Shown piece by piece: positions 15,429 to 63,953 of a stretch of 64,000 nucleotides of DNA. The position numbers were made by a program, and so were the translations under genes. The notes under the pieces are model-generated. The model was not told the DNA's origin and made no database searches. It saw only the letters and a program-made list of their open reading frames with translations. Source of the stretch: a virus; IMG/VR virus record IMGVR_UViG_3300024329_000004, positions 1 to 64,000 of that record; one strand, given 5' to 3'. Numbering within the stretch: the first letter of the stretch is position 1; every line of letters begins with the position of its first letter.

Positions 15429-15875
15429 TTATTTTAATTTAGAAGCTTCTTTCTTTGCATCTCTTAATGCCTTTCTTAAAACTTCAGGATCAACATCTTT
15501 AAGTTCCTGTTCTAGTTCCTTATGTGTCTTTTTATCCTTTTCAAAATCTTTAATAATTTCATCATGGTTACTCATTTCACCTCGAAGATCATCTATTCTT
15601 GCTTCAATATGATCTACTTCAGACTGTGCTTCTGCAGAATCATGATCTAGACCTTGTCTTTCATATTTCTTTGCCTTAGCTTTAGCCTTAGATAACATCT
15701 TCGTAAGATCTTTAAGATCTGCATTAGATATTTTTCTCGATCTATATGCTTTCATGATTTCAGGTCCAAACGCTATACCTATTCCTGCTATAGCAAATGT
15801 TAAGGTGATAGGATCTATAATTTCAGTAATTAAAGATTCGTTTACGAAATTATTATATGATTTTACTTTTTTCAT
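15429..15875 (-). CDS. Putative internal virion protein with capsid-targeting-like N-terminus
   Basis: 148 residues. It starts MKKVKSYNNFVNES, close to the T4 capsid targeting sequence MKTYQEFIAE, with a V-N-E/S site where a gp21-type protease could cut. A hydrophobic segment follows (DPITLTFAIAGIGIAFGPEI, 21-40), then a basic segment (AYRSRKIS) and a long coiled coil rich in Lys/Asp/Glu. The same plan (tag, hydrophobic segment, coiled coil) recurs in 29182..30567. It has its own GATATATA late promoter (15901-15908). Internal location is inference. Confidence 0.6.
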   Translation of the reverse strand: MKKVKSYNNFVNESLITEIIDPITLTFAIAGIGIAFGPEIMKAYRSRKISNADLKDLTKMLSKAKAKAKKYERQGLDHDSAEAQSEVDHIEARIDDLRGEMSNHDEIIKDFEKDKKTHKELEQELKDVDPEVLRKALRDAKKEASKLK

Positions 15876-15900
15876 CGCAATATATGTTATTTTCTTTTAG

Positions 15901-15908
15901 TATATATC
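15901..15908 (-). promoter_or_regulatory. Late promoter candidate GATATATA
   Basis: GATATATA on the minus strand, 25 nt before the ATG at 15875 and just after a terminator hairpin, so a new transcript probably starts here. Confidence 0.65.
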
Positions 15909-15913
15909 TAAAT

Positions 15914-15943
15914 AAAAGGAGGTCCAATCTAGGACCTCCTTTT
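15914..15943 (-). terminator. Hairpin terminator after tail chaperone genes
   Basis: 12-bp stem AAAAGGAGGTCC/GGACCTCCTTTT with a 6-base loop, five bases after the stop codon at 15948. Strong and symmetrical, so it could act in both directions, but all nearby genes are on the minus strand. Confidence 0.8.
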
Positions 15944-15947
15944 TCTA

Positions 15948-16256
15948 TTACATTTTAGGCATGTTGAAACTTGGCATTTTGAAAGAAGGCATTTTCATAC
16001 TTCCCATCATCTCGTTAGTTTGATCATTTTGCCCTTTGTTCGCTTCGTTTTCAGCTTTAATCATTTCAATTAACTCCTTGACAATATAATGGAATTCATA
16101 ATATTCCATGTTTTCAAGTTCAGAGGGTTGTATTGAAAGATGCTTATAAAGGTAGAACTTAGTTTTAAAGAAGTTCTCCAGCGATATCCTGAACAAGGAA
16201 AATAGATTTGATTCCGTCACGAAACCCAATCGGAACGAGGACCTCGTCATCCTCAT
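15948..16256 (-). CDS. Tail chaperone C-terminal extension (possible frameshift product)
   Basis: The frame from 16256 overlaps the end of the gp26-like gene by 92 nt. Its first 24 residues are unlike protein (MRMTRSSFRLGF), while from KTKFYLYKHLSIQPSELE on it is a convincing helical domain ending in a Met/Pro-rich tail (MKMPSFKMPSFNMPKM). This domain could be joined to the upstream protein by a +1 shift at the CTT-TAA stop at 16165-16170, giving a fusion of about 395 residues. Independent translation from an internal start is the alternative. In contractile-tail phages a chaperone pair made this way precedes the tape measure gene. Confidence 0.6.
   Translation of the reverse strand: MRMTRSSFRLGFVTESNLFSLFRISLENFFKTKFYLYKHLSIQPSELENMEYYEFHYIVKELIEMIKAENEANKGQNDQTNEMMGSMKMPSFKMPSFNMPKM
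16165..16170 (-). promoter_or_regulatory. Candidate +1 programmed frameshift site CTT-TAA
   Basis: At the end of the gp26-like frame the codons read CTT CTT TAA A. A +1 slip of the tRNA from CTT to TTT over the stop codon enters the second frame at AAA ACT AAG. The arrangement copies the prfB (RF2) site, where CTT is followed by a stop that starts with T. The shift would be favoured when termination is slow. Confidence 0.5.
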
Positions 16257-17136
16257 GCGTTACCAACATCTCAGGTTGAATTCCGACTTTCATTTTTTCA
16301 GCGAGTTTATATACTAAAGCATATTTTCTATTGTTCCATCCGTTTAATTCTACTTCAAAATTAAAGATTGATTTATCATCAAAGCCTCTCCAATCTGTAT
16401 ATAGATATGGAATTAATTGAATTAAAGACTGATCAGCCTGTAATCCCTTTTCTTGCTTTTCTTTAATATACTTAGTAACCTTTTGCATTAGACCAATTGT
16501 AGGAGGTCTCATTTCAATGTTACCAAATGATTTTGTCTCAATAATAAAGGTTCTTTTATCTTGATCGTAATATTTATCTAATTCTTCTGGAATAGAAAAG
16601 TATTGAAAATATTTCTTATCAATTGATGCATCGTGAGAAACACCTCTCTTATCTTGATACTTAACAGTTAATGCATTTTCAGGCTCAGGGAAAGTTAAAT
16701 CTCTGATTGCTAAAATTAACCAAAATCTATCTTCTTCTAAAATATCCTTATATGAAAGTCTTTTTTTCTTAGAAGTTATTCTAAGACATGACTCTACTAT
16801 AGCATTTAATTTTTCATCTACATCTAGAATGTTGGTTTCGTCCATGGTAGAGAAATGTCTAATCTCTGCAACCTTTGCAGATCTAATAGAAATTTCAGTA
16901 TCTGGAGTATAGAACATTCCACCTGACGGTAGTGAATCTATTTTAACTGAATGATATCCTAAATGAAAATCAGCTTCCTTTGCTTCAGCTGGTTGAAATC
17001 TAGACATATCAACTTTACCTAAATTCTTAGGCTCTTCTGATTCTACTGAAGATTCGTTCTCATTAGCTTCAACAATAGCTTTGTATTGATCGTCTAAATT
17101 GATTTCTTCTTCTTTTTTGTTTTTGTCTTTGCTCAT
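16165..17136 (-). CDS. Baseplate hub/tail assembly protein, gp26-like
   Basis: 323 residues. An acidic, disordered N-terminus (about 1-60) is followed by HSVKIDSLPSGGMFYTPDTEISIRSAKV, LLRITSKKKRLSYKDIL, RDLTFPEP, and MQKVTKYIKEKQEKG. This is the order in the T4 gp26 family of baseplate-assembly proteins, also proposed as tail assembly chaperones. T4 gp26 is about 208 residues, so this one carries an extra N-terminus. It follows the tube gene and the small gene 17143, and precedes the tape measure candidate. The end overlaps 15948..16256 in a +1 frame. Confidence 0.65.
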   Translation of the reverse strand: MSKDKNKKEEEINLDDQYKAIVEANENESSVESEEPKNLGKVDMSRFQPAEAKEADFHLGYHSVKIDSLPSGGMFYTPDTEISIRSAKVAEIRHFSTMDETNILDVDEKLNAIVESCLRITSKKKRLSYKDILEEDRFWLILAIRDLTFPEPENALTVKYQDKRGVSHDASIDKKYFQYFSIPEELDKYYDQDKRTFIIETKSFGNIEMRPPTIGLMQKVTKYIKEKQEKGLQADQSLIQLIPYLYTDWRGFDDKSIFNFEVELNGWNNRKYALVYKLAEKMKVGIQPEMLVTHEDDEVLVPIGFRDGIKSIFLVQDIAGELL

Positions 17137-17142
17137 GTTTTA

Positions 17143-17361
17143 TTATTTAGATTTGAGTTGTTTAATTCTATTTCGATCCCAACTCTTTTGAAGATCGCTT
17201 TTTTTATCTATTTCTTGTCTTATTAAGTCTCTGATAAACGCCGAAACTGAAACCGGTCTCTCTCCATTTTCAATCGCCTCGTTTAGTATAATCCTGTTTA
17301 TGATAAACACTTCTTCTTCAGAGAGTAATACCTGTAATTTCTTCGTTAGTTTACTGGACAT
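17143..17361 (-). CDS. Small basic protein, possible ribbon-helix-helix
   Basis: 72 residues: LTKKLQVLLSEEEVFIINRII then VSVSAFIRDLIRQEIDKK. A strand with alternating residues followed by two helices, the second with SVSAFIRDLIRQ, is the ribbon-helix-helix pattern of small DNA-binding repressors. It lies between tail tube and gp26-like genes without a recognisable promoter, so it would be expressed late. Regulator of late genes is a hypothesis. Confidence 0.5.
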   Translation of the reverse strand: MSSKLTKKLQVLLSEEEVFIINRIILNEAIENGERPVSVSAFIRDLIRQEIDKKSDLQKSWDRNRIKQLKSK

Positions 17362-17395
17362 ATTATTATATCATTATATTATATTTTAGTTTCAT

Positions 17396-17427
17396 AAAAA
17401 TAGGACGAACTAATTAAAGCCGTCCTA
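17396..17427 (-). terminator. Hairpin terminator after tail tube gene
   Basis: Stem CGTCCTA/TAGGACG with a 13-base loop, followed by five T on the minus strand. It starts 12 nt after the tube stop codon. Confidence 0.65.
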
Positions 17428-17438
17428 CTTTTAATAAA

Positions 17439-17993: not shown

Positions 17994-18018
17994 AAGTCTT
18001 TATTGTTTTATTTTTTAT

Positions 18019-18026
18019 TATATATC
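18019..18026 (-). promoter_or_regulatory. Late promoter candidate GATATATA (tube)
   Basis: GATATATA 25 nt before the ATG at 17993, directly after the stop codon of the sheath gene. Confidence 0.7.
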
Positions 18027-18029
18027 TTC

Positions 18030-28677: not shown

Positions 28678-29190
28678 ATGGCATATAATAAAAAATATCC
28701 CAAATTGGAAAGGGTTTCCCCTCATTCTCCTTATTCTAATAGATTTGGAATTAAGTTATCAAATCTTGCAAGACAGCAGAAGAGACTATTAATAGAAAAT
28801 CCTATTTTAGGTGAAAGGTGTGAAAGCGATCAGTTCGTTCATATCATATTCAATATATGTCAACATAGATATACTTCCTCTAAAAATAAGTATTATTATG
28901 ATTGGTCTACTGATTCGTTTGTGAAGATGGAAGATCTTAAAGAAAACTATAACACAATAGATTGGGTCTGTGCACTATCTGGTAAACCTATCAGATCTAA
29001 GACTGATAACTTTAGCTTGGAAAACTTTGTTCATCCAGAGTATCATGATGCATTACTGGCTCCTATGGTAGATGCTAGAATACTTAAGTCATCGATAGAG
29101 TTCCGTAAGCACATAAAAAAACTCCTATTGAATCAACAACAGGAGTTTCTAAATTTAGCTCGTAAAAATTCTAAAAAGAATTTAGATTAG
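28678..29190 (+). CDS. Hypothetical protein on plus strand, 170 aa
   Basis: One of two plus-strand genes, divergent from gp44 with a 59-nt gap and overlapping the next gene tail to tail by 9 nt. Basic N-terminus (MAYNKKYPKLERVSPHSPYS), then QFVHIIFNICQHRY, KYYYDWSTDSFVKME and CALSGKPI, and a helical basic end with many Lys. CxxxxxxxxH-like and CALSG segments might bind metal, but no finger is evident. Not recognised. Confidence 0.6.
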   Translation: MAYNKKYPKLERVSPHSPYSNRFGIKLSNLARQQKRLLIENPILGERCESDQFVHIIFNICQHRYTSSKNKYYYDWSTDSFVKMEDLKENYNTIDWVCALSGKPIRSKTDNFSLENFVHPEYHDALLAPMVDARILKSSIEFRKHIKKLLLNQQQEFLNLARKNSKKNLD

Positions 29191-30567
29191 TTTAGAGAAA
29201 CGATCTTTAACTGAAATAGACTCTTGTATTAAAGATTCCATTTCCATTTTTCTAAGATCGGATTCAAATATTAACCCTAATTTAGTATTATTTAATTGCC
29301 AAGATTCTTTTGCAAGAATTTTAGCTTTAAGTTCTTTTGCTTTTTTAAGCTTTGCTTCATCTCCACTCTCTTCTGCCTTTGCAATAACAGCATCAACTCT
29401 TTTGGTCATTCCTTCCTTTGAGTTATCTGTCTTATCGACTTCTTCCGTTTCTTCTTCAGGAGATTCTTCATCGTCTCCATCCGTTCCAAATGCATCGAAA
29501 TCATCTTCTTTTTCTGGAGTTTCTTCCGGAGTCTCCGTTGGAGTTTCTTCTGGAGTTTCTTCTGGAGTTTCCTCTGGAGCTTCTTCTTTTTCTTTTCCTT
29601 TTTCTTTTTCAGCCTTTATTTGCTCTAGCTCAGCTTTAACCTTTTCGTCATTTTTAGCTGCATCATCTAACTTCTTAGCATTTTTCTCTTGCTCAGCTGT
29701 TATTTTATCCATTCTCTCCTTTTGAGCCTGTTTAGATTTTGTAATTCTTTCTTTTAAATCTTTCTTAGTCTCGGCACTCATCTTATCTCCCCATGCATCT
29801 AGCTTATATTCTGAAACTTCTGTCGTGATTTGATCTCTCATATCAGCGATTAACGTTTTAACTTTTCCAGATCCAAATCCACTTACCTTTGAGTATTTAA
29901 CTTCTAATGAAGATCCATATTCTGTAGCAGCTGAATTAATTCCATCTTTTTTCTGCCTCATAGATTCTATTTGATTATCTAACTTGGCTTTCATTTTTTG
30001 AAGTGCTTTTTTCTTATTTGCTGCGCTTGCCTTCGCCTTTACATCATCTCCAGCTTCTTCGATTGATTCAGTAGTTGAAAGTTCTCTTCTTTTATCCTCT
30101 AAAGATAATACTGCAACTTCCATTTTAACGGTTTGCATTTTTAATTTCTTTAATTTAGAATAATCTTTTTCTGCTTCTTTAATGGTCTTTTTATTTTTAG
30201 CACCATCTTTTATAGCCTTTGCACCTAAACCAACTGCACCAATAACTGCCGTTAATCCTAGAACTGCTCCCATAATAATAGGATCTTCCATAAGCACCTG
30301 TCCCATAGGATTTGCTTCATTTAATGGTTGATCTTCTGATTCCGTAAGTTGATCAGAAAGTGTTTTTAGAGAATTGATAATATCATCACAATCTTGCATC
30401 ATTTTAGAATAACCCTCTTCTCCCGTTGCTTCCGGAGAGGCTATGGCAGTAGTTGTGTCTGATTCTATTGAAGTTGATGATTTAGCTACAGGTATATTAT
30501 CTTCAGAAGCTTCATCTATTGAATCAGCCTTTTTTGTAGAATTATACCATTGTTCGAATGTTTTCAT
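29182..30567 (-). CDS. Putative internal virion protein, tagged, coiled coil, acidic repeat
   Basis: 461 residues. It begins MKTFEQWYNS (compare T4 MKTYQEFIAE) and has S-I-D-E/A and P-L-N-E/A sites near residues 18 and 84 for a gp21-type protease. A hydrophobic segment at about 94-118 (PIIMGAVLGLTAVIGAVGLG) follows, then a long Lys/Glu/Ala coiled coil and a Glu/Thr/Pro four-residue repeat (about 330-355). The end has LIQESISVKDRFSKLI. It sits directly after gp23 with its own late promoter region. Injection or core scaffold roles are possible. Confidence 0.6.
   Translation of the reverse strand: MKTFEQWYNSTKKADSIDEASEDNIPVAKSSTSIESDTTTAIASPEATGEEGYSKMMQDCDDIINSLKTLSDQLTESEDQPLNEANPMGQVLMEDPIIMGAVLGLTAVIGAVGLGAKAIKDGAKNKKTIKEAEKDYSKLKKLKMQTVKMEVAVLSLEDKRRELSTTESIEEAGDDVKAKASAANKKKALQKMKAKLDNQIESMRQKKDGINSAATEYGSSLEVKYSKVSGFGSGKVKTLIADMRDQITTEVSEYKLDAWGDKMSAETKKDLKERITKSKQAQKERMDKITAEQEKNAKKLDDAAKNDEKVKAELEQIKAEKEKGKEKEEAPEETPEETPEETPTETPEETPEKEDDFDAFGTDGDDEESPEEETEEVDKTDNSKEGMTKRVDAVIAKAEESGDEAKLKKAKELKAKILAKESWQLNNTKLGLIFESDLRKMEMESLIQESISVKDRFSKLI
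29513..29580 (-). repeat. 12-bp tandem repeat encoding ETPE units
   Basis: In-frame degenerate 12-bp repeat (unit GAAGAAACTCCA) within the internal protein gene, about five copies. It encodes a flexible acidic linker. Expansion by slippage is likely. Confidence 0.7.
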
Positions 30568-30687: not shown

Positions 30688-32127
30688 TTAAAGAGCTAAT
30701 CCTTTAACTTCGTATGTAACATATTGAGTTTCTGGGTGGAAACCTGCTTCAACTAATGCGAATCTAGATTTAACAGCTACTTTAGGAGCCATAGTTCCTT
30801 CAGCGATTGTTTGTACTGATTCAGCCATTAAGTAAGGCATGAATACTAATCCAGGACCATTACCGTCACCTTTTCTACCAACTACTACTTCGTAATTAGA
30901 ATCATTAGCTCCCCATGCTTGTCTTGGGTCAGTGTATACATTTACACCAGCTACAGAACCTACTGGGTAGATTGCACCTGCTGCTTGTGATAATGTGTTA
31001 GCCATTGGGTTAGCAACGAAACCAGCAACTGATTGTAAAGCTGTAGCCACTTTAGGACCTACAACACAAAAGTTACCAGCACCTCTTCTACCTCTGTTTG
31101 CGATAAAGTTCGCAGCAGCAAGGATTGAAGTTAAGATTCTTCTATGGTTAGAAGCGATAGTCTCACCACCGAAATCAGCATTTAATGCTAAATTACAGTC
31201 TAAATTTACACCAGCAGCTGTAACGTTATCTTTACCTAAAGAATTAAGTTTAGCTAAGATTAAGTTGTTGATTGACTGAGTTAATTCGTTAGTTAATACT
31301 GACTCAACTTGAGCAACAGCATCTACACCGAATTGTTTAAGATCTTGTACTTGTTCTCTAGTAACTGCAGCAGCAACTTGGAAAGTTTCAGCAGCAACAC
31401 TTTTTGAGAATAAAGAAAGACCCATAACTTTGTCAGGAGTTTGTTCACCTGCACCTCTTGAGAATGGGTTACCATCTTCGTCAGCAGCAGCGAATCCTTT
31501 AATATGATCTTCTAAACCTTTTACTAATTCTACTGATTTAACAATAGCGATAGTAGCATCATCTGCATCAACTTCAGTATCTAATGCGTTGATTGCATCA
31601 GCAACAGAACCTGAAGTAGAAGCTGCTTCAGCAACTTTATAGATATCCATGTTGTCAATTCTAGAAGAACCGATCCAAGTGAAAGTAAATCCACCTGATT
31701 CGTTACCATCTACCTCAGCTTTAGCAGCGTCAGTTTTGATGTAAGTTGGAGCAACATCTCCAGCTAATTTACCACCTTCGTAAACGAAGTCTAAGTAAGA
31801 TAAAAGACCCATTGGTCCAGCCATTGGTACAACTGGTACTAAGTCTAAACCTATAGTTTGTGCAGCAACTTGCATTGCTAATGGTAATAATGTAGGAGCT
31901 TTATCACCTGAACCGTCTGCAGTTGCAGAAGGTAAAGATACATTACCCATACCGTAGATGTTACCAGCAGTCCCTAAAGACATGATGTGTGCATCTTCGT
32001 AAAGTTTGTGGTTATGACAGTATTCTGACATCCACGCTAGTTTTTCTGCTTCGTTGATACCTGTAGCTGATTCGATGATCGGAGCCCAAGTTTCTCTAAC
32101 TTCTGCAGAGTTAATTAAATTTGCCAT
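30688..32127 (-). CDS. Major capsid protein gp23
   Basis: 479 residues (T4 gp23 is 521). MANLINSAEVRETWAPIIESATGINEAEK forms a propeptide-like N-terminus with I-N-E/A at 24-26 as a candidate protease site. GMGNVSLPSATADGSGD at 59-75 starts the shell domain, and LISPMAMQVA-like LLPLAMQVAAQTIGLDLVPVVPMAGPMG follows, then RGAGNFCVVGPKVATALQ and GVNVYTDPRQAWG. It forms the hexamers of the capsid. No vertex protein gp24 is seen here. The leader is 155 nt, longer than most. Confidence 0.95.
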   Translation of the reverse strand: MANLINSAEVRETWAPIIESATGINEAEKLAWMSEYCHNHKLYEDAHIMSLGTAGNIYGMGNVSLPSATADGSGDKAPTLLPLAMQVAAQTIGLDLVPVVPMAGPMGLLSYLDFVYEGGKLAGDVAPTYIKTDAAKAEVDGNESGGFTFTWIGSSRIDNMDIYKVAEAASTSGSVADAINALDTEVDADDATIAIVKSVELVKGLEDHIKGFAAADEDGNPFSRGAGEQTPDKVMGLSLFSKSVAAETFQVAAAVTREQVQDLKQFGVDAVAQVESVLTNELTQSINNLILAKLNSLGKDNVTAAGVNLDCNLALNADFGGETIASNHRRILTSILAAANFIANRGRRGAGNFCVVGPKVATALQSVAGFVANPMANTLSQAAGAIYPVGSVAGVNVYTDPRQAWGANDSNYEVVVGRKGDGNGPGLVFMPYLMAESVQTIAEGTMAPKVAVKSRFALVEAGFHPETQYVTYEVKGLAL

Positions 32128-32282: not shown

Positions 32283-34343
32283 TTACTTGTTGAATCTCTT
32301 GTTAATAGACTTCTTAACATTAGTTAAATCATATAAAGGTTTTTTGTCTTCAATAACAGGAGCAGCTTCATTTACTGATTCTACTTTTTCCATAACAACT
32401 TTGACATCTCTAAGATCTCTAGTTTGCCAGAAGTTTCTTACTTGGTAAGCAGTTTCTAGTTTATGGTATTTAGATTGAGCTATAAGAGCTGTTTTCTTGT
32501 TATCTGACATGTTAGACCATGCTTCTTTATATTCTTCTGGCATCATTTCAATAACATTAGGTTCGTTAGTTTTAACGCTATTTATTAATGAAGAGTTCCA
32601 TAATGTAAGAATTTGTCCTTCAGTTAAGAATCCTTTTCCTTCGATTGATTTTAATACTTTAGATTGATCTTCAGTATTTAATTCGTTATATTCTGCTTTC
32701 TTAGCTTCAGAAATAAATCTAAAGAAATGAGGGTTAGTATTTTCTTTAACAGTTGCTTTTTCGATTAAAGCAGATAATTTAGAACTAATTTCAGATTTGT
32801 AAGCATCTAATGTATCTACTGTTTCAGTTTCTTCTACTGCTTCAGTTTCTTCTTCTTCAGTTTCTTCTACTGCTTCAGTTTCTTCTTCTTCAGTTTCTTC
32901 TACTGCTTCAGTTTCTTCTACGAATTCTTCTGCATTTTCTTTATCTTCAGCATCAACGTCTTCAACTTTATAAGTTTCTCCGTCTACTGTAAATTCTTTT
33001 TCTCCGTCTGCGATTGCTTTTGCTCTTGCAGCACCAAATGCATTTCCTTCTTCAACGTCTTCTTCTTCAGTTTCTTCAACTGCTTCAACGTCTTCTTCTT
33101 CAGAAATTTCTTCGTCACCTGCATCGTCAACTGTGTCTTCTAATTCGTCTTCTAACTCGTCAGATTTGTCTTCAACTTCTGCACCGTGATCTAATTCATT
33201 ATCTTCAGCATCAACTGTAGGTTCAGTAACATCTGTAGAATCGTCTTCATCTTCAATTTCTTCAACTTCTTTACCAGCTTCATCTTCTAGTAATAAGTTA
33301 GAATTAACTGTTTCTGCAACGTATTCTGCGTATTCAGTAACTTTTTCTAAATTTTCTTTTAAGTATTCAATATACTTTAATAAGCCTTCATGAGTTGTTG
33401 CACCTTCATTATAAGATTCTGCTAAATAATTAGTATAGTCTTTAATTGATTCAACACCTTCAGCAACATGCTCAGTATATGCAACGCTATTATCTAATTT
33501 CTCAGATATTTCGTTATTTGTAGTTATTGTATTATCTAAGTTTTCAGCAAGGTATGCAGAATACTCGATAGTCTTTTCTAATTTCTCAGCAAGATAGTTT
33601 GAATATTCTTTAACGCTTTCAACTTCAGACTTTACAGATTCATCACTATTTAAAGATTCCATTCCCTCTTTAATAGTTTTTATTTCGCTTGATAAATACT
33701 GTGAATATTTATTAAAATCATCAGTACTTACGAATTTTGATTCAGCCATTTTGTTTTCAGTTTTATTTTCGGTTGTTAAAAGTTCTTTTGTATTTCCAAT
33801 TTCATAAATTTGAATGCTAGAATCGTTATCAAATCCGAAAGATTCGTTAACTCTTTTTAATTCAGCATTTTCAAAGCCAGGATCTGCAACTAAATCATAA
33901 GTGAATAATTGCTTAATTTTAACAGTCCCGTTAGATTCAACTGTACCAGCTGCTCTAGATGAAATTTGTAAAGGAACACCAGCATCAACCAAAGCTTTAG
34001 CCTGACGACCAGCTTCAGTATCAAGTAATCTGATTTTACCTTTTACTTGTTTTGTTTCGCTATCATAGGATAATTCTTCAATAACGTGAGATACGTTTTT
34101 TAAAGATACATCAAATGTTTGTGGGTGATCTAATTCTCCTAAAAGTTTAGAAGAACCTATTTTAGATTGAAGAGCTTCAATTTGTGGAACATATTCTGAC
34201 TCAGTATAGATTCTATTATTTCTATTCTTTTTGTCAATTTCTCCAAATATACCTTCAAGGACATAAGCCCCATCACCATCTTGTTTGAATTCTAATTCAC
34301 TAGAAGATCTTTCTAGGATTAATAGATTGTTTTTTGTATTCAT
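32283..34343 (-). CDS. Prohead protease-scaffold fusion (gp21-gp22 type)
   Basis: 686 residues. Residues 1-165 match gp21 prohead proteases: YVLEGIFGEIDKKNRNNRIY, LLGELDHPQ with the catalytic His (73), SHVIEEL, GVPLQISSRAAG with the nucleophile Ser (128/129), and YDLVADPGF with an Asp. The rest is a coiled coil with repeated SNYLAEKLE-type units (about 205-345), a very acidic region with an 11-residue repeat (about 345-515), and a helical C-terminal domain. This is scaffold, the job of gp22 (separate in T4). Sites such as F-I-S-E/A and S-V-N-E/A would let the protease degrade its own scaffold. Confidence 0.8.
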   Translation of the reverse strand: MNTKNNLLILERSSSELEFKQDGDGAYVLEGIFGEIDKKNRNNRIYTESEYVPQIEALQSKIGSSKLLGELDHPQTFDVSLKNVSHVIEELSYDSETKQVKGKIRLLDTEAGRQAKALVDAGVPLQISSRAAGTVESNGTVKIKQLFTYDLVADPGFENAELKRVNESFGFDNDSSIQIYEIGNTKELLTTENKTENKMAESKFVSTDDFNKYSQYLSSEIKTIKEGMESLNSDESVKSEVESVKEYSNYLAEKLEKTIEYSAYLAENLDNTITTNNEISEKLDNSVAYTEHVAEGVESIKDYTNYLAESYNEGATTHEGLLKYIEYLKENLEKVTEYAEYVAETVNSNLLLEDEAGKEVEEIEDEDDSTDVTEPTVDAEDNELDHGAEVEDKSDELEDELEDTVDDAGDEEISEEEDVEAVEETEEEDVEEGNAFGAARAKAIADGEKEFTVDGETYKVEDVDAEDKENAEEFVEETEAVEETEEEETEAVEETEEEETEAVEETETVDTLDAYKSEISSKLSALIEKATVKENTNPHFFRFISEAKKAEYNELNTEDQSKVLKSIEGKGFLTEGQILTLWNSSLINSVKTNEPNVIEMMPEEYKEAWSNMSDNKKTALIAQSKYHKLETAYQVRNFWQTRDLRDVKVVMEKVESVNEAAPVIEDKKPLYDLTNVKKSINKRFNK
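32822..32922 (-). repeat. 33-bp tandem repeat in scaffold gene
   Basis: Three in-frame copies at exact 33-bp spacing (for example CTACTGC at 32834, 32867 and 32900) encoding an 11-residue acidic unit of the EAVEETEEEET type. A shorter related block lies at about 33050-33100. Recent duplication is likely. Confidence 0.85.
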
Positions 34344-34405: not shown

Positions 34406-34774
34406 CTATATTTCTAAATCTCCTAGCTCATCTTCTAAGCCTCCAGCACCTTCTTCGCCACCTTCTTCCTTCTTAGCAGCTTCTTCCTCCTCAGTTTCCT
34501 TAGCCTTTACTTCTGTTTCAACTTCTAAATAATAAGTGACTAGAGTTTGCATATCTTCTTCGGTAAATGCGTTATTACCGTATTCTTTATAAAAATATTC
34601 TTTGAATTCTTTCTCTGTTTTACTTGTATTTATTACTCCTATAATTTCAGCAGATTTAATCTTTTCACCTGAATCTAAAAGAATATCATCTACTATTACA
34701 TCTGAATCGTCTCCGACTTCTAGTGCATCTTCTGTTAAATTAGAGTAGTTTTTAAATGTTTTTAAGTGTTTCAT
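34406..34774 (-). CDS. Prohead core protein, gp67-like, tagged N-terminus
   Basis: 122 residues. MKHLKTFKNYSNLTEDA gives a tag-like N-terminus with an L-T-E/D site. The rest is acidic and helical, ending in a Glu/Lys/Ala-rich segment with EEGGEEGAGGLEDELGDLEI. Position between portal and protease-scaffold is that of T4 gene 67 (PIP), a small acidic core protein cleaved during maturation. Confidence 0.6.
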   Translation of the reverse strand: MKHLKTFKNYSNLTEDALEVGDDSDVIVDDILLDSGEKIKSAEIIGVINTSKTEKEFKEYFYKEYGNNAFTEEDMQTLVTYYLEVETEVKAKETEEEEAAKKEEGGEEGAGGLEDELGDLEI

Positions 34775-34796: not shown

Positions 34797-36392
34797 CTAG
34801 AATCCCATGTCCATAGGGTCCACCTCAGGTTCTTCTGCTTCTTCAGAAGCTTGTCTTTGTTTATAAGCTTCGTTTGCAGCTTTATCGTCAGGGGATAATT
34901 TTAAATATCTGTCTACTAAGAATTCCATATCAAAGTAAGGCATTTCTTCCATAGTAACTGGATCTGTTTTCATTAGAGAATCTTGCATTGTAGATATAAA
35001 GTCTAATCGTTTCTCCATGATTTCCATTTGTTTTAATTCAGCAAACATATTCTCTTCATTAAATTGAATAGCTATTTGAGTTCTAAAACCTGCATCATCT
35101 TTAAATTCAGGAAATTTAAGACACATTTGTAACCATAGGGGTTTTACTAAAATTTCTTGGAAAGAAGAACGTAATCTTTTGATAAATTTAGAAAACTTAA
35201 TTTCATCTCTAATCATACCATCAGCTGCAAGGTTAAAGTCACCTCCACCGTCTTCGTACATGAATCTATTGAATGGTATTTTAGAAACCATTTTTAATTT
35301 ATCATTAAAATATTTAAGTGCTTCTGTATCTGATAATTCGGGACCGTCTCCTCCTAAAGTTTCAATCTCTGGAGATTCTCCTTCTTTAGATGGTAACCAA
35401 TATTCTTTGTTAAATTGGAGCATTGGTTTTCCATTAGTTGCTAATGTAGCTGAATCCCAATCAAAATCTACAACTTCTTTATAATTACCCATTAATTGAG
35501 CAAGAGATTGTTTAGCTCTTGTTTTAGATTTACCACCAACTGGAATAATAAACTTCATTCTATATGATGAGTTTGTAACCGCCCAGATAACTCTAGTATG
35601 TTCCATTATTCTCATCAGGTTAAATGATCTTATAAGTCTTTCTAAGTAACTTACTCTCGAGGCAGTGGTTATTGAAGAATAAGAAAGATAGATAATCTGT
35701 GAATCATACAGGACTCTCTCCTTAACAGGATCGTCCTTAAATTGAACCCATACTTTTTTACCATCATCTTTATTATAACCTGGCATTAGTGTAATAGGAT
35801 CTATTTCCTTAAATCCTATAATCTGATCTTGATCTGGGCTGTAAATAATTTCAAAAGAAAGATATCCGTCAATTAAGAATTTTCTAAAGAAGTACCATGC
35901 CGATTGATCTGAATTAAATCCAAAATATTGATATAAATCTCTGTATGATTTATTTAAGTACTTTGTAACTTCTTCTGAAACATCCATTCCTATAAGTTCT
36001 GGATTTCCAATAAAGTTCTTATTGTCATACACGATAGATTCATCACATAAGATATCTAATATATCTTCTATTTCATCATGTGTAGAAAATCTTCTTAATT
36101 CTTCTCTTTTACCTTCATAACCTTGGTCAAAGAAAGGAATATTTTTTCTCATATTGGTATCTGCCATCGATAATGCAGCAAATGCCCCATACATGTTATC
36201 GTCATCTAGACCCATCTGATTCATTTGGCCGTAACCAAATTCATCTTCTACAGGGCCTATTGCCTGAGATTGTCTTAAGACTAAATCATCGTAATACATT
36301 CCGAAAGACGAGAGTCTTTTTAATGTATCACTTAGTGTGAATGATCTTTTACCAGTACTTAATGGTCCGTTTCTTTCTATAAATCCTGCCAT
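34797..36392 (-). CDS. Portal protein gp20
   Basis: 531 residues (T4 gp20 is 524). RRFSTHDEIEDILDILCDESIVYD, FRKFLIDGYLSFEIIY, GFKEIDPITLMPGY, and SKIPFNRFMYEDGGGDFNLAADGMIRDEIKFSKFIKRLR are the T4-type portal blocks (stem and wing). Forms the 12-mer through which DNA enters. N-terminus is extended with Met/Asp/Gly-rich sequence. It follows the gp2/gp4-like genes. Confidence 0.95.
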   Translation of the reverse strand: MAGFIERNGPLSTGKRSFTLSDTLKRLSSFGMYYDDLVLRQSQAIGPVEDEFGYGQMNQMGLDDDNMYGAFAALSMADTNMRKNIPFFDQGYEGKREELRRFSTHDEIEDILDILCDESIVYDNKNFIGNPELIGMDVSEEVTKYLNKSYRDLYQYFGFNSDQSAWYFFRKFLIDGYLSFEIIYSPDQDQIIGFKEIDPITLMPGYNKDDGKKVWVQFKDDPVKERVLYDSQIIYLSYSSITTASRVSYLERLIRSFNLMRIMEHTRVIWAVTNSSYRMKFIIPVGGKSKTRAKQSLAQLMGNYKEVVDFDWDSATLATNGKPMLQFNKEYWLPSKEGESPEIETLGGDGPELSDTEALKYFNDKLKMVSKIPFNRFMYEDGGGDFNLAADGMIRDEIKFSKFIKRLRSSFQEILVKPLWLQMCLKFPEFKDDAGFRTQIAIQFNEENMFAELKQMEIMEKRLDFISTMQDSLMKTDPVTMEEMPYFDMEFLVDRYLKLSPDDKAANEAYKQRQASEEAEEPEVDPMDMGF

Positions 36393-39662: not shown

Positions 39663-41000
39663 TTATAGGTATCTTGTCGCTGCTCTTTGCCAGTTTGGTA
39701 AACCTGACATTTTTAAACCAGCTGCTTTAACGAATGTTCTCATAGAAATATCGTTTGCGTTTTTCATAAATTCGTAGATTTCTTCCTTTTCTTTAAGTGG
39801 CATCTCGGTAGGTTCTAAATGGGGTAATAACCTTTCCATTCTTTCCATTAAGGTTGCATCATCAGGATTTACATCTACTAAAATAGATCTAGATCTAATA
39901 GCTCCATCTGGATCTGCCTTTTCTTTTGCTAAATTCGAAATAAAAATTACTCTTCCTGCGAATTCAAATGAGTTAGGAACAATTCCATTTTCTTCTAATG
40001 TGAATGCTTCTTCAGGACTCACATCTTTAGGATCATATACTGCTTTAGTCTTTTTTAAATAAGAGATTTTTCTTACTTTCTTTGTATCTAATGCCGCTTT
40101 CATTAAGTTTCTACCGTTTTCATCTCTAAATACTGCATCACAGTCATCAAAGATTAATGTCTTATTTCTATATTGATAGAATTTCTTATACATCATAATA
40201 ACAGATGCTGCACCTGAAACCATAACGTAATCTTCTTCGTCAACAAGACCTTCATCTTTCATTGCTCTTTCTACATTATATGTTTTACCAGTACCTGCTC
40301 TACCTGAAATAAATAAAGAGTTAAATGCACCTGCAGCGACTCTTCTTGATATTTCGTAAATATCTTCCATTGTTTCTTCAAGATATTTAACCTTATCATT
40401 AAGTGTCATATCATTTTGTGTTTCAGCTGCGGTAGGTTTTACTACAACCTGCTGTCCTTTCTTAATATTCATGATTGAAGAATAAGGAACTTCTAATTCG
40501 TCTGCTATTTTATTAACGGCCATTCCAGCTGCTAATTTAGCCTCGATCATTTTAATTTCTTCTTTAGAGAATGCTCTTTTAGTTCTTCTTTCTAATAACA
40601 TTGACTCTTGTATAGATGCAACGTATTTTTTATCCATTAATCTAACGAATTCTCCAACTAATTTAACAATTGGGAATGTTTCAGATGAAATAGAAAAATC
40701 AGATTTAGCGTCTGCTGCATCTGAGAAATAGATTATAGAACCTACAATACCAGGGTTTTTTGCAGCAGCGGGAGTTACCATAAATGCCTCTGTACCTTTA
40801 CTTGAGTAAAACATTACTCCAGAACCCATATCAGTTATCATTTCAAATGGAAACTTTTTAAAGTCCTTCTTTGTTTTCTTATTTACAAATCTTGCGATTA
40901 TCGTAGCTGCTTTATTTAGAGAAGGATTTACAAGTTCTATTGAACCCGTTTTCATAGCTTCATTTAAATACTGATCGTATTTTAAGATTTTATTATTCAT
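39663..41000 (-). CDS. AAA+ ATPase with tag-like N-terminus and HTH segment
   Basis: 445 residues. MNNKILKYDQYLNEA at the N-terminus resembles the capsid targeting sequence with an L-N-E/A cut site at 12-14. Residues 20-130 are a mixed domain of unknown type, 143-183 hold a helix-turn-helix-like segment (AVNKIADELEVPYSSIMNIKKG), and the AAA+ module has Walker A GRAGTGKT at 233-240, Walker B LIFDDCD at 282-288, sensor 1 VIFISN and an IRSRS arginine-finger region. It has its own late promoter and lies among head genes. A packaged ATPase is the suggestion; a late assembly ATPase is the alternative. Confidence 0.75.
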   Translation of the reverse strand: MNNKILKYDQYLNEAMKTGSIELVNPSLNKAATIIARFVNKKTKKDFKKFPFEMITDMGSGVMFYSSKGTEAFMVTPAAAKNPGIVGSIIYFSDAADAKSDFSISSETFPIVKLVGEFVRLMDKKYVASIQESMLLERRTKRAFSKEEIKMIEAKLAAGMAVNKIADELEVPYSSIMNIKKGQQVVVKPTAAETQNDMTLNDKVKYLEETMEDIYEISRRVAAGAFNSLFISGRAGTGKTYNVERAMKDEGLVDEEDYVMVSGAASVIMMYKKFYQYRNKTLIFDDCDAVFRDENGRNLMKAALDTKKVRKISYLKKTKAVYDPKDVSPEEAFTLEENGIVPNSFEFAGRVIFISNLAKEKADPDGAIRSRSILVDVNPDDATLMERMERLLPHLEPTEMPLKEKEEIYEFMKNANDISMRTFVKAAGLKMSGLPNWQRAATRYL

Positions 41001-53082: not shown

Positions 53083-54480
53083 TTATCTTAATCTTTTTTT
53101 AAGTCTGTCGGCTTTAGTGAAATATTCGTATGAGGTTTGTTTATAATCTTTACGCTGATCATATAAATCTCCTAGAATTTTCTTTAACATTGAAGTCTCT
53201 TGTTTATAGACTACTCCGTTTTCACAAACGATTACTTCTTTATCCTTTCTTCGCTCAGCGACTTCATGCTTTGCTACCTTTTCAACAAAGGCGTCAGGTG
53301 AAATATTAAATTGTCTCATTATAGAAGGATATAGTGATGCAAAGTCAAATGCACTTACACCTGCATAATATCCAGTAATGGGTTCTTTTACATAAGCACC
53401 GGCATATTGTGCATTCTTTTCACTGTCTTCCTTCTTTTCAGATCCAATTCGTTTACCTTCTTCTGATAATTTTCGTGCAATCAGAGATTCTGTAACTGCC
53501 ACTGGCGATGCTGCTTTATATAGAGGCATCTTTGTGATGTTTGCCAAGGTTAAAAGAACTTCCATCGATTTCAACTTTTGATCTATATAATAAACCAATA
53601 CGGAATCGACTACATTGTAGTAAATGTATTTTACAAAATCATCCCTATATAAATCCTGTAGAGATCCTGTAAATTTAATCTTGTTAACATTAAGAACTTG
53701 ACCTGAGACATAATCAAGTGCATTAGATTCTTTTACCTTTACACTTCTATCATACTTATCATATAATTGCATGTAATCTAAGATTCCAATATGTAAGGGT
53801 CTGCTGTCATTTCTATCCAAAGATTGTGTCATAGAAACTTCAGCAATATCAATTTGTAATCTTTTACATCTGTTTACAATATATTGCCAATCATAATTAA
53901 TAAAGTTCCAGCCTGTCATCATTGGAAACTTAGGTAGGAACTTCATTAAGAACGTATAGACCATGTCATATTCTGACTCGAATTTCTGATATTTGAATTC
54001 CCAATCCTGATCAAAGTCTTTGAAATACTTATTAGTATCGTCTTCAATTTTTTGGATGCTTTTAGAATCCATATCTTCCAATCCTAATACAATAGCTTTA
54101 TGTTCTGGTGTAATTATGGAAAATGATAGGATTCTACTTTTAGCTTCTTCAGCTTTTGGAAAGCCATCTACGATTTCAGTTTCAATATCGACGAAGTATG
54201 TTTTAGGCATATTGTATGCAAAGATTTCTTCTTTATCCTTTGCGGGTAATGAATCTAAGAAATAAGTTAAAGAAAACTTATTATATCTTCTTGCACTTCC
54301 TAGTTTGACTGATCTGCCATCCCAGTTTTTATGATCTAGACTTCTGCCTTTATCATTATCATTACATACATACCAGTTCTGATACTGTGAAATTGGATAT
54401 TGTTTAAATGCTACTTTACCTTCGGTGTCGTAGTAAGAGATGATAACATCCCTGTCTCTCTGTTCAATATCTAATATCAT
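53083..54480 (-). CDS. DNA polymerase gp43, N-terminal half (split gene)
   Basis: 465 residues of family B polymerase. Exonuclease motifs ExoI FVDIETE (D98, E100), ExoII NFINYDWQYI and ExoIII YYNVVDSVLVYYID; motif A FDFASLYPSIMRQ at about 378-389; the frame ends in the fingers at TKADRLKKRLR. The missing part continues in 47964..49163. Between them lie nrdB, nrdA and gp45, and terminators, so both pieces are separately transcribed. The break position is between motifs A and B, as in split polymerases reported in Aeromonas T4-like phages. Confidence 0.93.
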   Translation of the reverse strand: MILDIEQRDRDVIISYYDTEGKVAFKQYPISQYQNWYVCNDNDKGRSLDHKNWDGRSVKLGSARRYNKFSLTYFLDSLPAKDKEEIFAYNMPKTYFVDIETEIVDGFPKAEEAKSRILSFSIITPEHKAIVLGLEDMDSKSIQKIEDDTNKYFKDFDQDWEFKYQKFESEYDMVYTFLMKFLPKFPMMTGWNFINYDWQYIVNRCKRLQIDIAEVSMTQSLDRNDSRPLHIGILDYMQLYDKYDRSVKVKESNALDYVSGQVLNVNKIKFTGSLQDLYRDDFVKYIYYNVVDSVLVYYIDQKLKSMEVLLTLANITKMPLYKAASPVAVTESLIARKLSEEGKRIGSEKKEDSEKNAQYAGAYVKEPITGYYAGVSAFDFASLYPSIMRQFNISPDAFVEKVAKHEVAERRKDKEVIVCENGVVYKQETSMLKKILGDLYDQRKDYKQTSYEYFTKADRLKKRLR

Positions 54481-57025: not shown

Positions 57026-57032
57026 CTTTGTT

Positions 57033-59934: not shown

Positions 59935-59964
59935 ATTGTATTATACTTAAAAAAACTAAATTGT

Positions 59965-60357: not shown

Positions 60358-60367
60358 ACTCTATTAA

Positions 60368-60398: not shown

Positions 60399-60424
60399 CT
60401 TAAATTGTTTAAATATTTTAAAGA

Positions 60425-62296
60425 TTACCAGCTAGCAGCCCATACAAATTCAAAGTTATGTTTCTTACAAAACTTTTCAATCATATCTGAAACCTTAGCT
60501 TGAGCAGCTTCGTACTTAGCGTAATCTCTTCCATCTATAATATTATAAGCGCTTTCTCCATATTCATCAGGATGTCTTAATTCTCTTGGCTCGTCAGTCT
60601 TATAATAAACTTTCTTTTCAGCCGTTCTAATATAAGGCATTCTTAATTCTATTCTTCTATGTGCTTTTCTTCCGCTTGCCTTTGCGATGTCATATTGCTT
60701 TTCGATTCTTGGCTTTAATCTAGTCCATTCGGCTAATATTTTATCATTAGCTTTAAAACCTGCTAGGATAGTTTTCATGTCAAATTCTACTCCGTTTACT
60801 CTTTTGTAATCTTTGAAAACTCCAACTACATCATCCATAAATTTATCAAAGCTAGAAATAGATTGATAAGAACCATGTACAGTTCCCATACCCCAATCAT
60901 CTTCTACCTTTCCAGTTGATACTTTTTTGGTTCCATTGAATAATTTTGCAAATGAATAATTAGGTTTACGCGTTGAGTTGTTAGACTGAAACTTAAATAC
61001 TTCATGTTTCCATGATTTTCCTCGAAGCTCAATGCTCAAACATAAGTTACCTCCATAATTCCATTCTGATCTATAAACTCTACATTTGAATTGAATTTTT
61101 GGAAATTCCTTTTTTAAACGTTCAGCCATTTGTAAACCATTACCGAAGTTAGATTCTCTTTTGTATGCTTCTTTACATTCTTTAGATTTTCTAGCAATAG
61201 CTAAAACCTTACTTATTGTATAGTATGTTTCTGAATCGAATATTTCATCATCTGTTTCTTTATCTAAAATAACATCTTCATTAATAGATTTTAAATGAGT
61301 CAGTTTAGTGGATGTTGATTCTGCAAATGCTTCAATATCCCATTGGATTCTTTGCATTGGATCATCACCTCTAAAGTTTTTCTCAACCCAATCAATAAGA
61401 CCTGGTTCGAATTGGGCGTTTTGTGCCATATCATAGGCATTCTTCCAACCGTCGTTTGATGCAACGTCTTCTAACCATTGGTCATATTTCCTTTGAGTCC
61501 ATCTTACTTTCTTAACAGCTTTCTTATGAGGACCAGCTCCTAATGTTGACTTTACAGTATTATAATGGTCTGGACCAGCAAATACGCCTTCTGCCCATTC
61601 TTGATCTCTTTTATTACCGTCCCAATATTTAATTTCTTTTCTGAATCTTCTTAGTGAATAATTACCACCTTCAATTTGTTTACGCTTTGTTACTTCTCCT
61701 TGTCTGTAACCTATTTCAATCTTCTTTTCTTCGGCAGTTTTAGGATCCATTTCAAAATGTAAAGATTTTACTAAATCTGCAATACCGTCAAACTTACCTT
61801 CATTAACCGATTCTAAAATAATAGAATTTAGCTTTACTTCTTTATTAAATCTAGCGCTGCGTACATCGTCAGTTACTTCTAACTTAACACCATACATTGC
61901 AGTTAATTTTACCTTTACTTTTTTACCATTATGTTCTGCTTCAAATTCTTTAAATGCATTTGCCTGTCGGCCATAATCCGTAATTTCATAGTTTCCATCT
62001 TCTGTATCAAATATAGTACCGATGCTAATTTTATTAAGAACTCTTGCACCCATCATAGATATTTTAGAAGAAGATATTGTTTTACCTTCATCAAGTGATC
62101 CGAAAGATTCAAATGATATAATGTTTTTCATTTCGCGTTGTTTCTTTTTATTTCTCTTCTTCTTATACTCTTCTTCGGCATCTCCTTTTCCGGCTGGAAT
62201 ATCCCCTGATCCAACTGATGTTTCAGATGGTAAAGAGACTTCTCCCATTCCGGCCATATCGCCAAGTGATAAGTTTTCGTTTTCGTTTAATTCCAT
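60425..62296 (-). CDS. Large putative internal virion protein with capsid-like motif and tag
   Basis: 623 residues. Residues 17-33 (GMGEVSLPSETSVGSGD) share 13 of 17 positions with gp23 residues 59-75. A Lys-rich linker leads to an in-frame MKNIISFESFGSLDEGK at 56, which looks like the capsid targeting tag with an L-D-E/G site; translation could also start there (ATG at 62131). The rest is basic and aromatic, with RWTQRKYDQWLEDV and NYGGNLCLSIELRGKSWKHEVFKF. No known domain identified. Last gene of a late unit beginning at 63953. Confidence 0.6.
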   Translation of the reverse strand: MELNENENLSLGDMAGMGEVSLPSETSVGSGDIPAGKGDAEEEYKKKRNKKKQREMKNIISFESFGSLDEGKTISSSKISMMGARVLNKISIGTIFDTEDGNYEITDYGRQANAFKEFEAEHNGKKVKVKLTAMYGVKLEVTDDVRSARFNKEVKLNSIILESVNEGKFDGIADLVKSLHFEMDPKTAEEKKIEIGYRQGEVTKRKQIEGGNYSLRRFRKEIKYWDGNKRDQEWAEGVFAGPDHYNTVKSTLGAGPHKKAVKKVRWTQRKYDQWLEDVASNDGWKNAYDMAQNAQFEPGLIDWVEKNFRGDDPMQRIQWDIEAFAESTSTKLTHLKSINEDVILDKETDDEIFDSETYYTISKVLAIARKSKECKEAYKRESNFGNGLQMAERLKKEFPKIQFKCRVYRSEWNYGGNLCLSIELRGKSWKHEVFKFQSNNSTRKPNYSFAKLFNGTKKVSTGKVEDDWGMGTVHGSYQSISSFDKFMDDVVGVFKDYKRVNGVEFDMKTILAGFKANDKILAEWTRLKPRIEKQYDIAKASGRKAHRRIELRMPYIRTAEKKVYYKTDEPRELRHPDEYGESAYNIIDGRDYAKYEAAQAKVSDMIEKFCKKHNFEFVWAASW

Positions 62297-62299
62297 ATC

Positions 62300-62617
62300 T
62301 TAATATTCAAATGGTGGAGTTCCATAATCATCTTGTTCGATGCCATACCATACTCCTGATACTTGTAAATACCACCATCCATATTTAGTGTCGTCTACTA
62401 CTTTAAATTTCTTAGGTAATTTAACAGATTTTTTTGGAGCTCTAGCAATATACTTTAAAACTGGAACACCATCGTCCCATGTTTTTTTAGTAGATCTTGC
62501 TTGAACTGATTGTCCATCTGAAAACGCATCAAATGCTTTTGCATCTTCTATTTCATCTGCTAATAAATCGATAGCTGATTCATTAATGTATTGTTCAAAT
62601 AATTTTACTTTTTTCAT
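62300..62617 (-). CDS. Putative internal virion protein, small, tagged
   Basis: 105 residues. MKKVKLFEQYINESA is the tag with an I-N-E/S site at 11-13. The C-terminal half (SVKLPKKFKVVDDTKYGWWYLQVSGVWYGIEQ) is a beta-rich, aromatic domain like a small SH3 or Tudor-type barrel. In the same unit as its neighbours, 3 nt from the next ATG. Confidence 0.6.
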   Translation of the reverse strand: MKKVKLFEQYINESAIDLLADEIEDAKAFDAFSDGQSVQARSTKKTWDDGVPVLKYIARAPKKSVKLPKKFKVVDDTKYGWWYLQVSGVWYGIEQDDYGTPPFEY

Positions 62618-62618
62618 T

Positions 62619-63953
62619 TTACCAAACTATGTTTTTATTATCCCATTTAGCCATTCTTTGCTTAAGCTCTAGTGCTTTACGCTTAGCATCTCTCATATAC
62701 CAAGAACTTGATGAACCGAATTTTTCTTCTTCAGTTTTCATATTAACGTATGCTGAAACATATCCTTGATAATCTGACAATATATTTGCAATATAATTGG
62801 TTAAATCTCTAGGTCTAATTTCTCTTCCTTTAGGGTCTTTTCCTATTGTTAATTCGTTATAGTTTCCTAATTCTTTTTTAGCTAAACCAGCCATTAAGAA
62901 TTGGTGTGCATCTTCGATAATTTCTTTAACTTTCTTGTCTATTTTATCTGGGTTATCAGCTTTCTTCGCAAGAATATCGTTATACCTTGTTAAGTTATCC
63001 TCTTTGATTTTCTTAGGGTTTGTAAGTGCAGTAGCTCCAGATTTTGCCTCTGCTCTTGCAGATGTCTTATCATCGGTAGATAAAGAAGCTCTTAATGTGT
63101 CTAAATTAATAATGTAACATTCGTCAGACATTTCCGCAATTCTTTTAATGTTACCTAATCCCGTTCCACTATATTGGTTGTGTGATTTGTTAACACCGAC
63201 AGTATCTTTAGATCCAGGGTATTTACCCATGTTCTTAAGTCTTCTTGTGTTTTTCTTACCACCTATTGTGTCGCTGTTTCTATTCCATATTGAATCGTTC
63301 TGAAACATTTCATTTTTTCCATTAGAAACAGCTAATAAACAATTTCCAGGAATCATTTCAACATATCTTCCGGAAGAAGGAGCATATTCATTTTCTTTTT
63401 CATTTCTAGAAATCCAAAATACAATTACGTTTCCGAATGTTTTTGCTTTCTTATAAACTTCAACTGGGTTGCTATTAGAAATTATCATATCATCGGTAAC
63501 TTTATCTAGTGCTACTTTAGCAAGACCGTATATACCTTTAATTAATTCCTTACCACCTTTTTTGATGTCTATTAATCCTCTTAACTTGGAAGAAGCTAGA
63601 GCTTCATTAAGTTCTAAAGATTCAGTTGCTCTGTATTTTGCAAATTTACCCTTTTTAATTGTTTTAACTAATTCAGCTTCGCTATCGTCCATGTGACCAT
63701 ATACATCATTATGTGTTGCTGCGTTTACTATTTCACCAGCATCACCAATAAAATAAGTTCCTCCTGCATATTCGTCTCCATCCATATCTAGATCAAAACC
63801 ACCGGAATCTAATGAATTTTTAGAAATTGTGAATTCTTTTCCGTCTGCTTTTGAAAGAGCAGCTGCTAATTTTTTTGCTATTTTAGCAGTATCTTTCTGC
63901 TTCATAACCTTTGCTTCATTGATAAAATTATCGAAGTTAGTATATAGTTTCAT
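62619..63953 (-). CDS. Putative internal virion protein, large, tagged
   Basis: 444 residues. MKLYTNFDNFINEA with I-N-E/A at 11-13 is the clearest tag here, and a second L-N-E/A lies near 114-116 (SLELNEALASS). FGNVIVFWISRNEKENEY...RYVEMIPGNCLLAVSNGK and a Lys-rich C-terminal helix follow. T4 packages an ADP-ribosyltransferase (Alt) by similar means, but no R-S-E motif is evident here. First gene of the unit, with a late promoter at 63978-63985. Confidence 0.6.
   Translation of the reverse strand: MKLYTNFDNFINEAKVMKQKDTAKIAKKLAAALSKADGKEFTISKNSLDSGGFDLDMDGDEYAGGTYFIGDAGEIVNAATHNDVYGHMDDSEAELVKTIKKGKFAKYRATESLELNEALASSKLRGLIDIKKGGKELIKGIYGLAKVALDKVTDDMIISNSNPVEVYKKAKTFGNVIVFWISRNEKENEYAPSSGRYVEMIPGNCLLAVSNGKNEMFQNDSIWNRNSDTIGGKKNTRRLKNMGKYPGSKDTVGVNKSHNQYSGTGLGNIKRIAEMSDECYIINLDTLRASLSTDDKTSARAEAKSGATALTNPKKIKEDNLTRYNDILAKKADNPDKIDKKVKEIIEDAHQFLMAGLAKKELGNYNELTIGKDPKGREIRPRDLTNYIANILSDYQGYVSAYVNMKTEEEKFGSSSSWYMRDAKRKALELKQRMAKWDNKNIVW

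Follow-up and report, generated by a model that had tools for sequence, protein, structure and literature searches.

Tagged genes and the head-gene block

The window analyzed here is a 64,000-nt stretch, positions 1-64,000 of the IMG/VR virus record IMGVR_UViG_3300024329_000004 (full length 169,565 bases, 210 called open reading frames, ORFs). Seven of its predicted proteins carry, at the N-terminus or in one case internally, a short sequence of spaced aromatic residues followed by an [ILV]-x-Glu site, hereafter the tag, which the original prediction likened to the capsid-targeting sequence of the internal proteins (IPs) of phage T4. The seven genes, like nearly all large ORFs of the window, lie on the minus strand, and the window holds a T4-like head region in which the portal protein, an S77 protease and a gp23-type capsid protein form one block (Table 1). 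ORFs were called longest-first, with some spurious ORFs included and with starts taken as called.

Table 1. Tagged genes and head genes of the window, in order of position (a slash marks a predicted or candidate cut)
Feature	Position	Strand	Length (aa)	N-terminus or sites	Remarks
Tagged protein	15429..15875	-	148	MKKVKSYNNFVNE/S	hydrophobic stretch after tag; no family over cut-off
Glu/Lys-rich protein, FEQWY N-terminus	29182..30567	-	461	MKTFEQWY...SIDE/A (later IDE/A site)	directly downstream of gp23
Major capsid protein (gp23-like)	30688..32127	-	479	IIE/S-19, LYE/D-44	family matches
Prohead protease, S77 (gp21-like)	32283..34343	-	686		PF03420 E 7.8e-10, 39 bits vs. cut-off 27; phrog_207 E 2e-41
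Small acidic protein	34406..34774	-	122	MKHLKTFKNYSNLTE/D	gp67/68 place, between portal and protease
Portal protein (gp20-like)	34797..36392	-	531		matches to portals of named phages
Tagged AAA-type ATPase	39663..41000	-	445	MNNKILKYDQYLNE/A	phrog_1250 E 1.3e-39; Pfam AAA_16 below cut-off
Composite protein	60425..62296	-	623	internal tag MKNIISFESFGSLDE/G (Met56)	capsid-protein-like GMG..LP..GSGD, acidic/basic linker, internal tag, cargo
Tagged protein	62300..62617	-	105	MKKVKLFEQYINE/S	no family above cut-off
Tagged protein	62619..63953	-	444	MKLYTNFDNFINE/A	no family found (Pfam, PHROGs)

Enrichment and spacing of the tag

All seven sequences were found as originally given. The form held to be common to them is strict in four (15429, 39663, 62300 and 62619), while those at 34406 and 60425 depart from it by two inserted residues and that at 29182 by a distant site. 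In the T4 IPIII tag, targeting is described as depending on residues 4 and 7 and processing on residues 8 and 10, and Asp at position 10 as blocking processing while targeting is kept (PMC9026906); the conserved tag positions here have a spacing identical to T4 residues 4, 7, 8 and 10.

The strict pattern [FYW]xx[FYW][ILVM]xE occurred at the N-terminus of 10 of the 210 ORFs of the whole record, where its internal density would predict 1.24 (Poisson 8e-7), and shuffled N-termini (n = 1000) gave a mean of 0.31 and a maximum of 4. For the narrower [FY]xx[FYW][ILV][NSA]E there were 9 N-termini against 0.43 expected, and none among 977 internal Met windows. A profile was built from 64 tags of four other genomes, and its scores were compared with a background of 784 internal Met windows of the record: the tags at 15429, 39663 and 62300 outscored all of these windows, and two windows reached the tags at 29182 and 62619. 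Only the first three scores are fully independent, because the bodies of these proteins have no homolog in the training genomes, where the other four of the seven do have relatives.

In 67 of the 77 strict matches (present record and four relatives together), Glu lies at residue 13 or beyond; the residue after it was Ser, Ala or Gly in 42 of these 67, as compared with 17.8% after internal Glu. Synonymous codon differences were common among the tags, indicating that the peptide is what is kept and ruling out a DNA-level element.

The tag in relatives, viral contigs and named phages

Tag counts exceeded expectation in the present record and in each of the four relatives (Table 2). The 77 ORFs of this five-genome count, plus four genes of the record added by hand, gave 81 tagged ORFs, which formed 48 clusters by body; 31 of the clusters have a single member.

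Table 2. ORFs bearing the tag in five genomes (counts of the third column include some false members, e.g. a capsid-protein fragment in G009 and 53639-54229 in G013)
Genome	At first start	At first start or later early Met	Expected
Present record	10	11	1.31
G013	24	29	0.92
G006	14	15	0.57
G005	13	15	1.1
G009	6	7	0.79

In the viral contigs the tag pattern was present in at least 119 stretches, while a codon-reordered control pattern was present in none. Fourteen contigs longer than 100 kb were picked by tag, leaving out those already known via their capsid protein, and an S77 protease was found in 11 of them, a proportion for which the base rate of S77 in large contigs was not measured; two of the three contigs without S77 were also without gp23 and are probably fragments. 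The third, G024, has dense tagged ORFs flanking gp23 (L287, 180-17611) and a second tag form, MI[KN]NFxxF[LM]NE, beside MKHIKLxExF. Ten ORFs in two stretches of LR756500 begin with a local form, MKYIxxYxxF[ILV]xE (once MKFI).

Named phages were scanned with one degenerate DNA pattern, the control being the pattern read backwards. T4 gave three matches (control, 1), namely ipII, ipIII and gene 61.1, so that ipI is missed by the pattern. The T4-like phage W143 gave 10 (control, 1), two of which look false and which include the annotated internal proteins II and III; LR756500 gave 27 (control, 3) and Lak-B1 11 (control, 1), many of the latter not resembling tags. The start of T4 gene 61.1 (NC_000866, 18966-19130; hypothetical protein), MKTFKEFIKE, fits the capsid-targeting pattern, which makes its product a candidate internal protein, and a W143 match with the same tag lies at 16984-17013. 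Five W143 genes annotated as "hypothetical protein" (MZ189262, 62500-63899 and 70377-71018) also carry the tag and may encode internal proteins.

These counts bear on whether AT-rich N-termini are alike merely by accident of composition. A loose gapped pattern is expected at 3.46 of the 210 N-termini, and single weak members can therefore be chance; one such strict-pattern match, 110132-111850 (MAADWTNFISE), was dropped for its profile score of -2.2. For the set as a whole, chance is contradicted by the enrichment, the profile and the control patterns, with crAss001, phi14:2, phiKZ and phage G giving 1, 1, 0 and 5 matches vs. 4, 0, 1 and 2 in the control, and we give this explanation practically no weight.

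Tagged proteins among the head genes

In T4, gp22 is encoded immediately before gp23, and gp67 and gp68 between the portal and the protease. The latter place is occupied here by the tagged protein at 34406-34774. Its ortholog at the gp67 position of G009 has a canonical tag, MKTIKTFEQFISE/AEAL, and further orthologs read MKIIKTFEEFTSSLQE/DAID and MKTIKTFEQFINSSYIKIDE/AAID (all cuts predicted), with the aromatic half constant and the cut half sliding. The 34406-34774 product is probably a head-core component that is cut up by the protease, and not cargo. Directly after gp23, where the window has the 29182-30567 gene, the sequences found in relatives are MEKFETWYNKFMNEA and MNKFENWYTSILEE. Because T4 gp22 adjoins gp23, on its other side, 29182-30567 may encode a moved scaffold or core protein, its kinship with gp22 being hypothetical. 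T4 gp67 and gp22 are described as ending in fragments after cutting (PMC9026906), and by this analogy one, perhaps two, of the seven would be core and not cargo. The original prediction had all seven delivered to the host; this is unsupported in that breadth, given that 34406-34774 is probably protease-cut core, that 29182-30567 may be too, and that such parts would stay undelivered. The N-termini of T4 gp67, gp68 and gp22 themselves showed no tag.

The tagged set and its recognizable bodies

Beyond the window, the profile added tagged ORFs at 63988, 79061, 115360, 121088, 122167, 122984, 133293 and 167683. Those at 63988 and 122984 were reached by 2 and 3 of the 784 internal windows, and the other six by none. 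A ninth, at 70181, was included on the basis of tagged homologs, and the record thus has 16 tagged proteins (7 in the window and 9 outside). The tag of 122167-122649 ends in Asp instead of Glu (MKHIKLFESFVND). No body similarity was detected in any of the 120 pairs of the 16 proteins at E 0.01, and such unrelated bodies rule out a duplicated gene family. By sequence, the expectation of a set larger and more diverse than that of T4 is supported, with 16 tagged proteins here and 24 at first starts in G013.

Most scanned tagged proteins had no Pfam family over its cut-off; weaker matches (e.g. ABC_tran_CTD, EzrA, FtsJ, 3D, Glyco_hydro_71) were not used. No IP family appeared among the Pfam and PHROGs matches of the seven proteins and of seven of the nine others (all except 122167 and 122984). 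The 62619-63953 protein has 28 related loci among viral contigs, and its structure model (8 sequences) had a mean pLDDT of 42.5; neither it nor the 60425-62296 protein had a tblastn match in the named phages. The ATPase at 39663-41000 is related to the T4 36.7-kDa nrdC-mobD family, of which T4-like W143 has a member without tag. One tagged cluster is represented by one protein per genome in all five (133293-134246 in the record), and ATP-grasp models match this member and that of G013, all below their cut-offs. In LR756500, a tagged protein scored above the cut-off for DUF2201.

A body of recognizable role was found in two relatives, outside the window: G013 and G005 each encode a tagged protein of 180-188 aa over the Pfam cut-off for Acb1 (PF23474; 31.2 and 30 bits vs. 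27). The Acb1 active site is described as formed by two HxT motifs (PMC9117128), and both were invariant in 10 of 10 aligned homologs. The tag was present in 12 of 14 homologous loci, the two untagged ones at 49% identity, in a search whose query contained the tag and so favored tagged homologs, and in which several loci come from copies of a single phage. In the model of the homolog (pLDDT 80.8), confidence is low over the tag, and the body is of 2H-phosphodiesterase type; Acb1 chains made up five of the top six Foldseek rows, but with TM scores of 0.39-0.58 and with other 2H phosphodiesterases scoring alike. As homologs of Acb1, these proteins would be anti-CBASS nucleases, the first tagged bodies here with a recognizable role.

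The nature of the bodies also bears on the possibility that the tag binds the core mainly as an assembly signal, the tagged proteins being filler or assembly factors that are largely consumed and not delivered. That the protein at the gp67 place is tagged, and the neighbor of gp23 more loosely so, would fit such a role. So might the tagged AAA-type ATPase, if it resembles BCS1: a part in the transfer of folded proteins into heads has been proposed for phage AAA+ proteins of that type (PMC7824862). The 48 diverse body clusters, which differ between close relatives and include an Acb1 homolog, are better explained by cargo, and we regard a set consisting mainly of filler as unlikely.

Comparison with phage PAU

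Sphingomonas phage PAU (NC_019521), for which a re-assignment of the host to Sphingobacterium is reported (PMC3738902), resembles the present phage in its T4-like head genes and in some 20 proteins that share a short N-terminus with [ILV]-x-Glu at its end, the label internal capsid protein being given to four of these proteins; it differs in that its tag lacks the FxxF pair. The DNA tag pattern had two matches in PAU and none in the control, and L[YF]E stood within the first 14 residues of 21 of its 285 called ORFs, as against about 2 expected (1.78 for 9 places, 2.4 for 12). The PAU tag is lineage-specific, mostly MKT[LI]xxLYE and then Ala or Ser, and many genes bearing it are located around those for the portal, the protease and the "scaffolding" protein, the last of which is itself tagged. 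Four of the five PAU entries annotated as "internal capsid protein" (gp142, gp154, gp199 and gp270) are tagged, in the form MK[TSG][LI]xxLYE (Fisher 1e-4). The record uses nicknames for vertex and decoration proteins, which suggests that these labels come from structural work. The mature major capsid protein of PAU is reported from N-terminal sequencing to comprise 520 of 585 residues (PMC5646251); the nearest site of [ILV]xE type, LME-64, would leave 521, one residue off the mature length.

A signal of the same appearance could direct proteins elsewhere, to a membrane, the replication compartment or the baseplate, its likeness to T4 being convergence, and the hydrophobic stretch after the tag of 15429-15875 could be read in that way. 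Against it stand the four T4 positions including the protease site, the tag at the gp67 place, the S77 protease and the related tags on PAU proteins labelled as internal capsid proteins, all of which make such a destination very improbable.

The composite protein and its capsid-like segment

The tag of the 60425-62296 protein is truly internal, since the 55-residue prefix before it is conserved and a mis-called start was thereby ruled out. Of 26 loci with a match to this protein, 12 are identical, two align through, and 12 break after residue 65-73 and then resume. In the breaking loci the first part (residues 1-65 or 1-73) is 77-95% identical and the later part 69-92%, with an unalignable stretch after the tag, and the piece directly following the tag is therefore exchanged or lost.

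The GMG..LP..GSGD segment of the prefix also occurs in the major capsid protein of the window, directly after LYE/D. LYE/D is the final [ILVM]xE before the GMG segment in 41 of the 47 N-termini of capsid proteins, a set that includes close relatives; its PAU counterpart is LME-64. Outside capsid proteins, the segment, noted also at L134:14150-14926, was found in 28 distinct sequences (about seven of them variants of the window gene); an FxxF pair follows within 65 residues downstream in 26 of the 28, 17 of which also have a near cut site. Several of the proteins with the segment start like MPSTSKAQQ, which in the one scanned corresponds to DUF3008 (PF11450, E 1.1e-11).

We hypothesize that prefix and internal tag together constitute a composite loading prodomain imitating the shell protein. 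A wider proposal, which we hold as tentative and rather doubtful, is a two-part loading code in which the N-terminal tag and a shell-mimicking prodomain (in some cases DUF3008, with an N-arm-like segment and an internal tag) would dock swappable cargo inside the capsid, hence a modular store of some 15-25 early counter-defense proteins, including Acb1, delivered before phage gene expression.

Probable capsid targeting in expanded form

The shared N-terminus is very probably a capsid-targeting propeptide of T4 type, by which the tagged proteins would be co-assembled with the head, cut by the S77 protease and mostly delivered with the DNA. The aromatic pair ([FY]xx[FY]) would bind the assembling prohead core, so that any bearer is co-assembled; the gp21-like S77 protease would then cut after Glu at [ILV]xE, often before Ser, Ala or Gly, freeing the mature protein in the head. 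DNA would be packaged around the freed proteins. By analogy with T4, most of them would exit with the DNA and have an early role against the host, whereas the one encoded at the gp67 place is probably part of the core itself. The original capsid-targeting reading is thus favored by the four-position grammar of T4, the S77 protease, the tag at the gp67 place, the retrieval of ipII and ipIII, the Ser, Ala or Gly after Glu, and the related tag on four of the five PAU "internal capsid proteins", and a T4-type mechanism in an expanded, partly new form is strongly indicated by sequence.

As in T4 IPI-III (and Alt), the tag is an aromatic-xx-aromatic-[ILV]-x-Glu sequence of 10-20 residues on unrelated proteins, in a phage with an S77 protease and with the portal, a small core protein, the protease and the capsid protein clustered. 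The present system differs from T4 in the number of tagged proteins, in a longer lead before the aromatic residue (often M-K-x-[IVL]-K-x), in the tag at the gp67 place, in the extra residues that some tags have before the cut site, in internal tags behind a capsid-protein-like segment, and in the absence of IP body homology by Pfam or PHROGs. It is also reminiscent of the giant phages SPN3US and phiKZ, in which the head protease strips N-terminal propeptides off internal and ejected proteins, although phiKZ has no match to the present tag pattern.

Several points weigh against capsid targeting by this tag. The ungapped profile fails the tags at 34406 and 60425 (Met56), whose scores are reached by 94 and 101 of the 784 internal windows, because two residues sit between FxxF and the xE site; their apparent membership rests on tagged or conserved relatives. 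Lys stands next to Glu in 12 of the 67 tags, and for several tagged proteins the homologs in relatives lack the tag, some perhaps through ORF calling. The tag is not found in every phage of this head type (PTm1 and S-CAM22, one match vs. one control each). The tag-rich G024, in which gp23 is present, has no S77 match; a 743-aa ORF beside gp23 carries by eye the NRNNRIY stretch of gp21-like proteins and has a weak Peptidase_S80 match, below cut-off. In PAU, whose record is silent on the basis of its labels, the "internal capsid protein" gp70 and the "internal capsid vertex proteins" gp1 and gp10 are without tag, and with the latter two included the proportion is 4 of 7 (Fisher 7e-4). The limits given above for the S77 survey and the Acb1 search count likewise. 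What the sequences show is the tag with its enrichment and spacing, the unrelated bodies, the presence of the protease in the same genome and a tagged protein at the gp67 place; core binding, cutting after Glu, packaging, injection and the function of the cargo are inferred from them.

As regards the source of the record, the best portal matches among named phages were to a 462-kb uncultured phage, followed by huge uncultured phages, PAU, Prevotella Lak phages and the Tenacibaculum phages PTm1 and PTm5, and from these portal relatives alone a host in the Bacteroidota appears likely. Adjacent tRNA-Asp and tRNA-Ser genes lie at 11709-11875 of the window. Among the papers listed in the literature searches (mostly open-access; mainly work on T4, P1, SPN3US and other subjects), which also covered Acb1 and PAU, no earlier report of such tags in phages of Bacteroidota or in uncultured T4-like phages was found.

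If the capsid-targeting reading is true, a signature of about 13 residues would predict which of the many hypothetical proteins encoded by uncultured T4-like phages enter the virion, where their mature N-termini lie and that their action falls at the very start of infection. T4 Ip1, Ip2 and Ip3 are each reported to block a different GmrSD restriction enzyme (PMC12373910), and larger injected sets can therefore be tested for the same role. The tagged proteins would then form a searchable list of candidate pre-loaded counter-defense proteins, and the tags might serve for loading proteins into phage heads.

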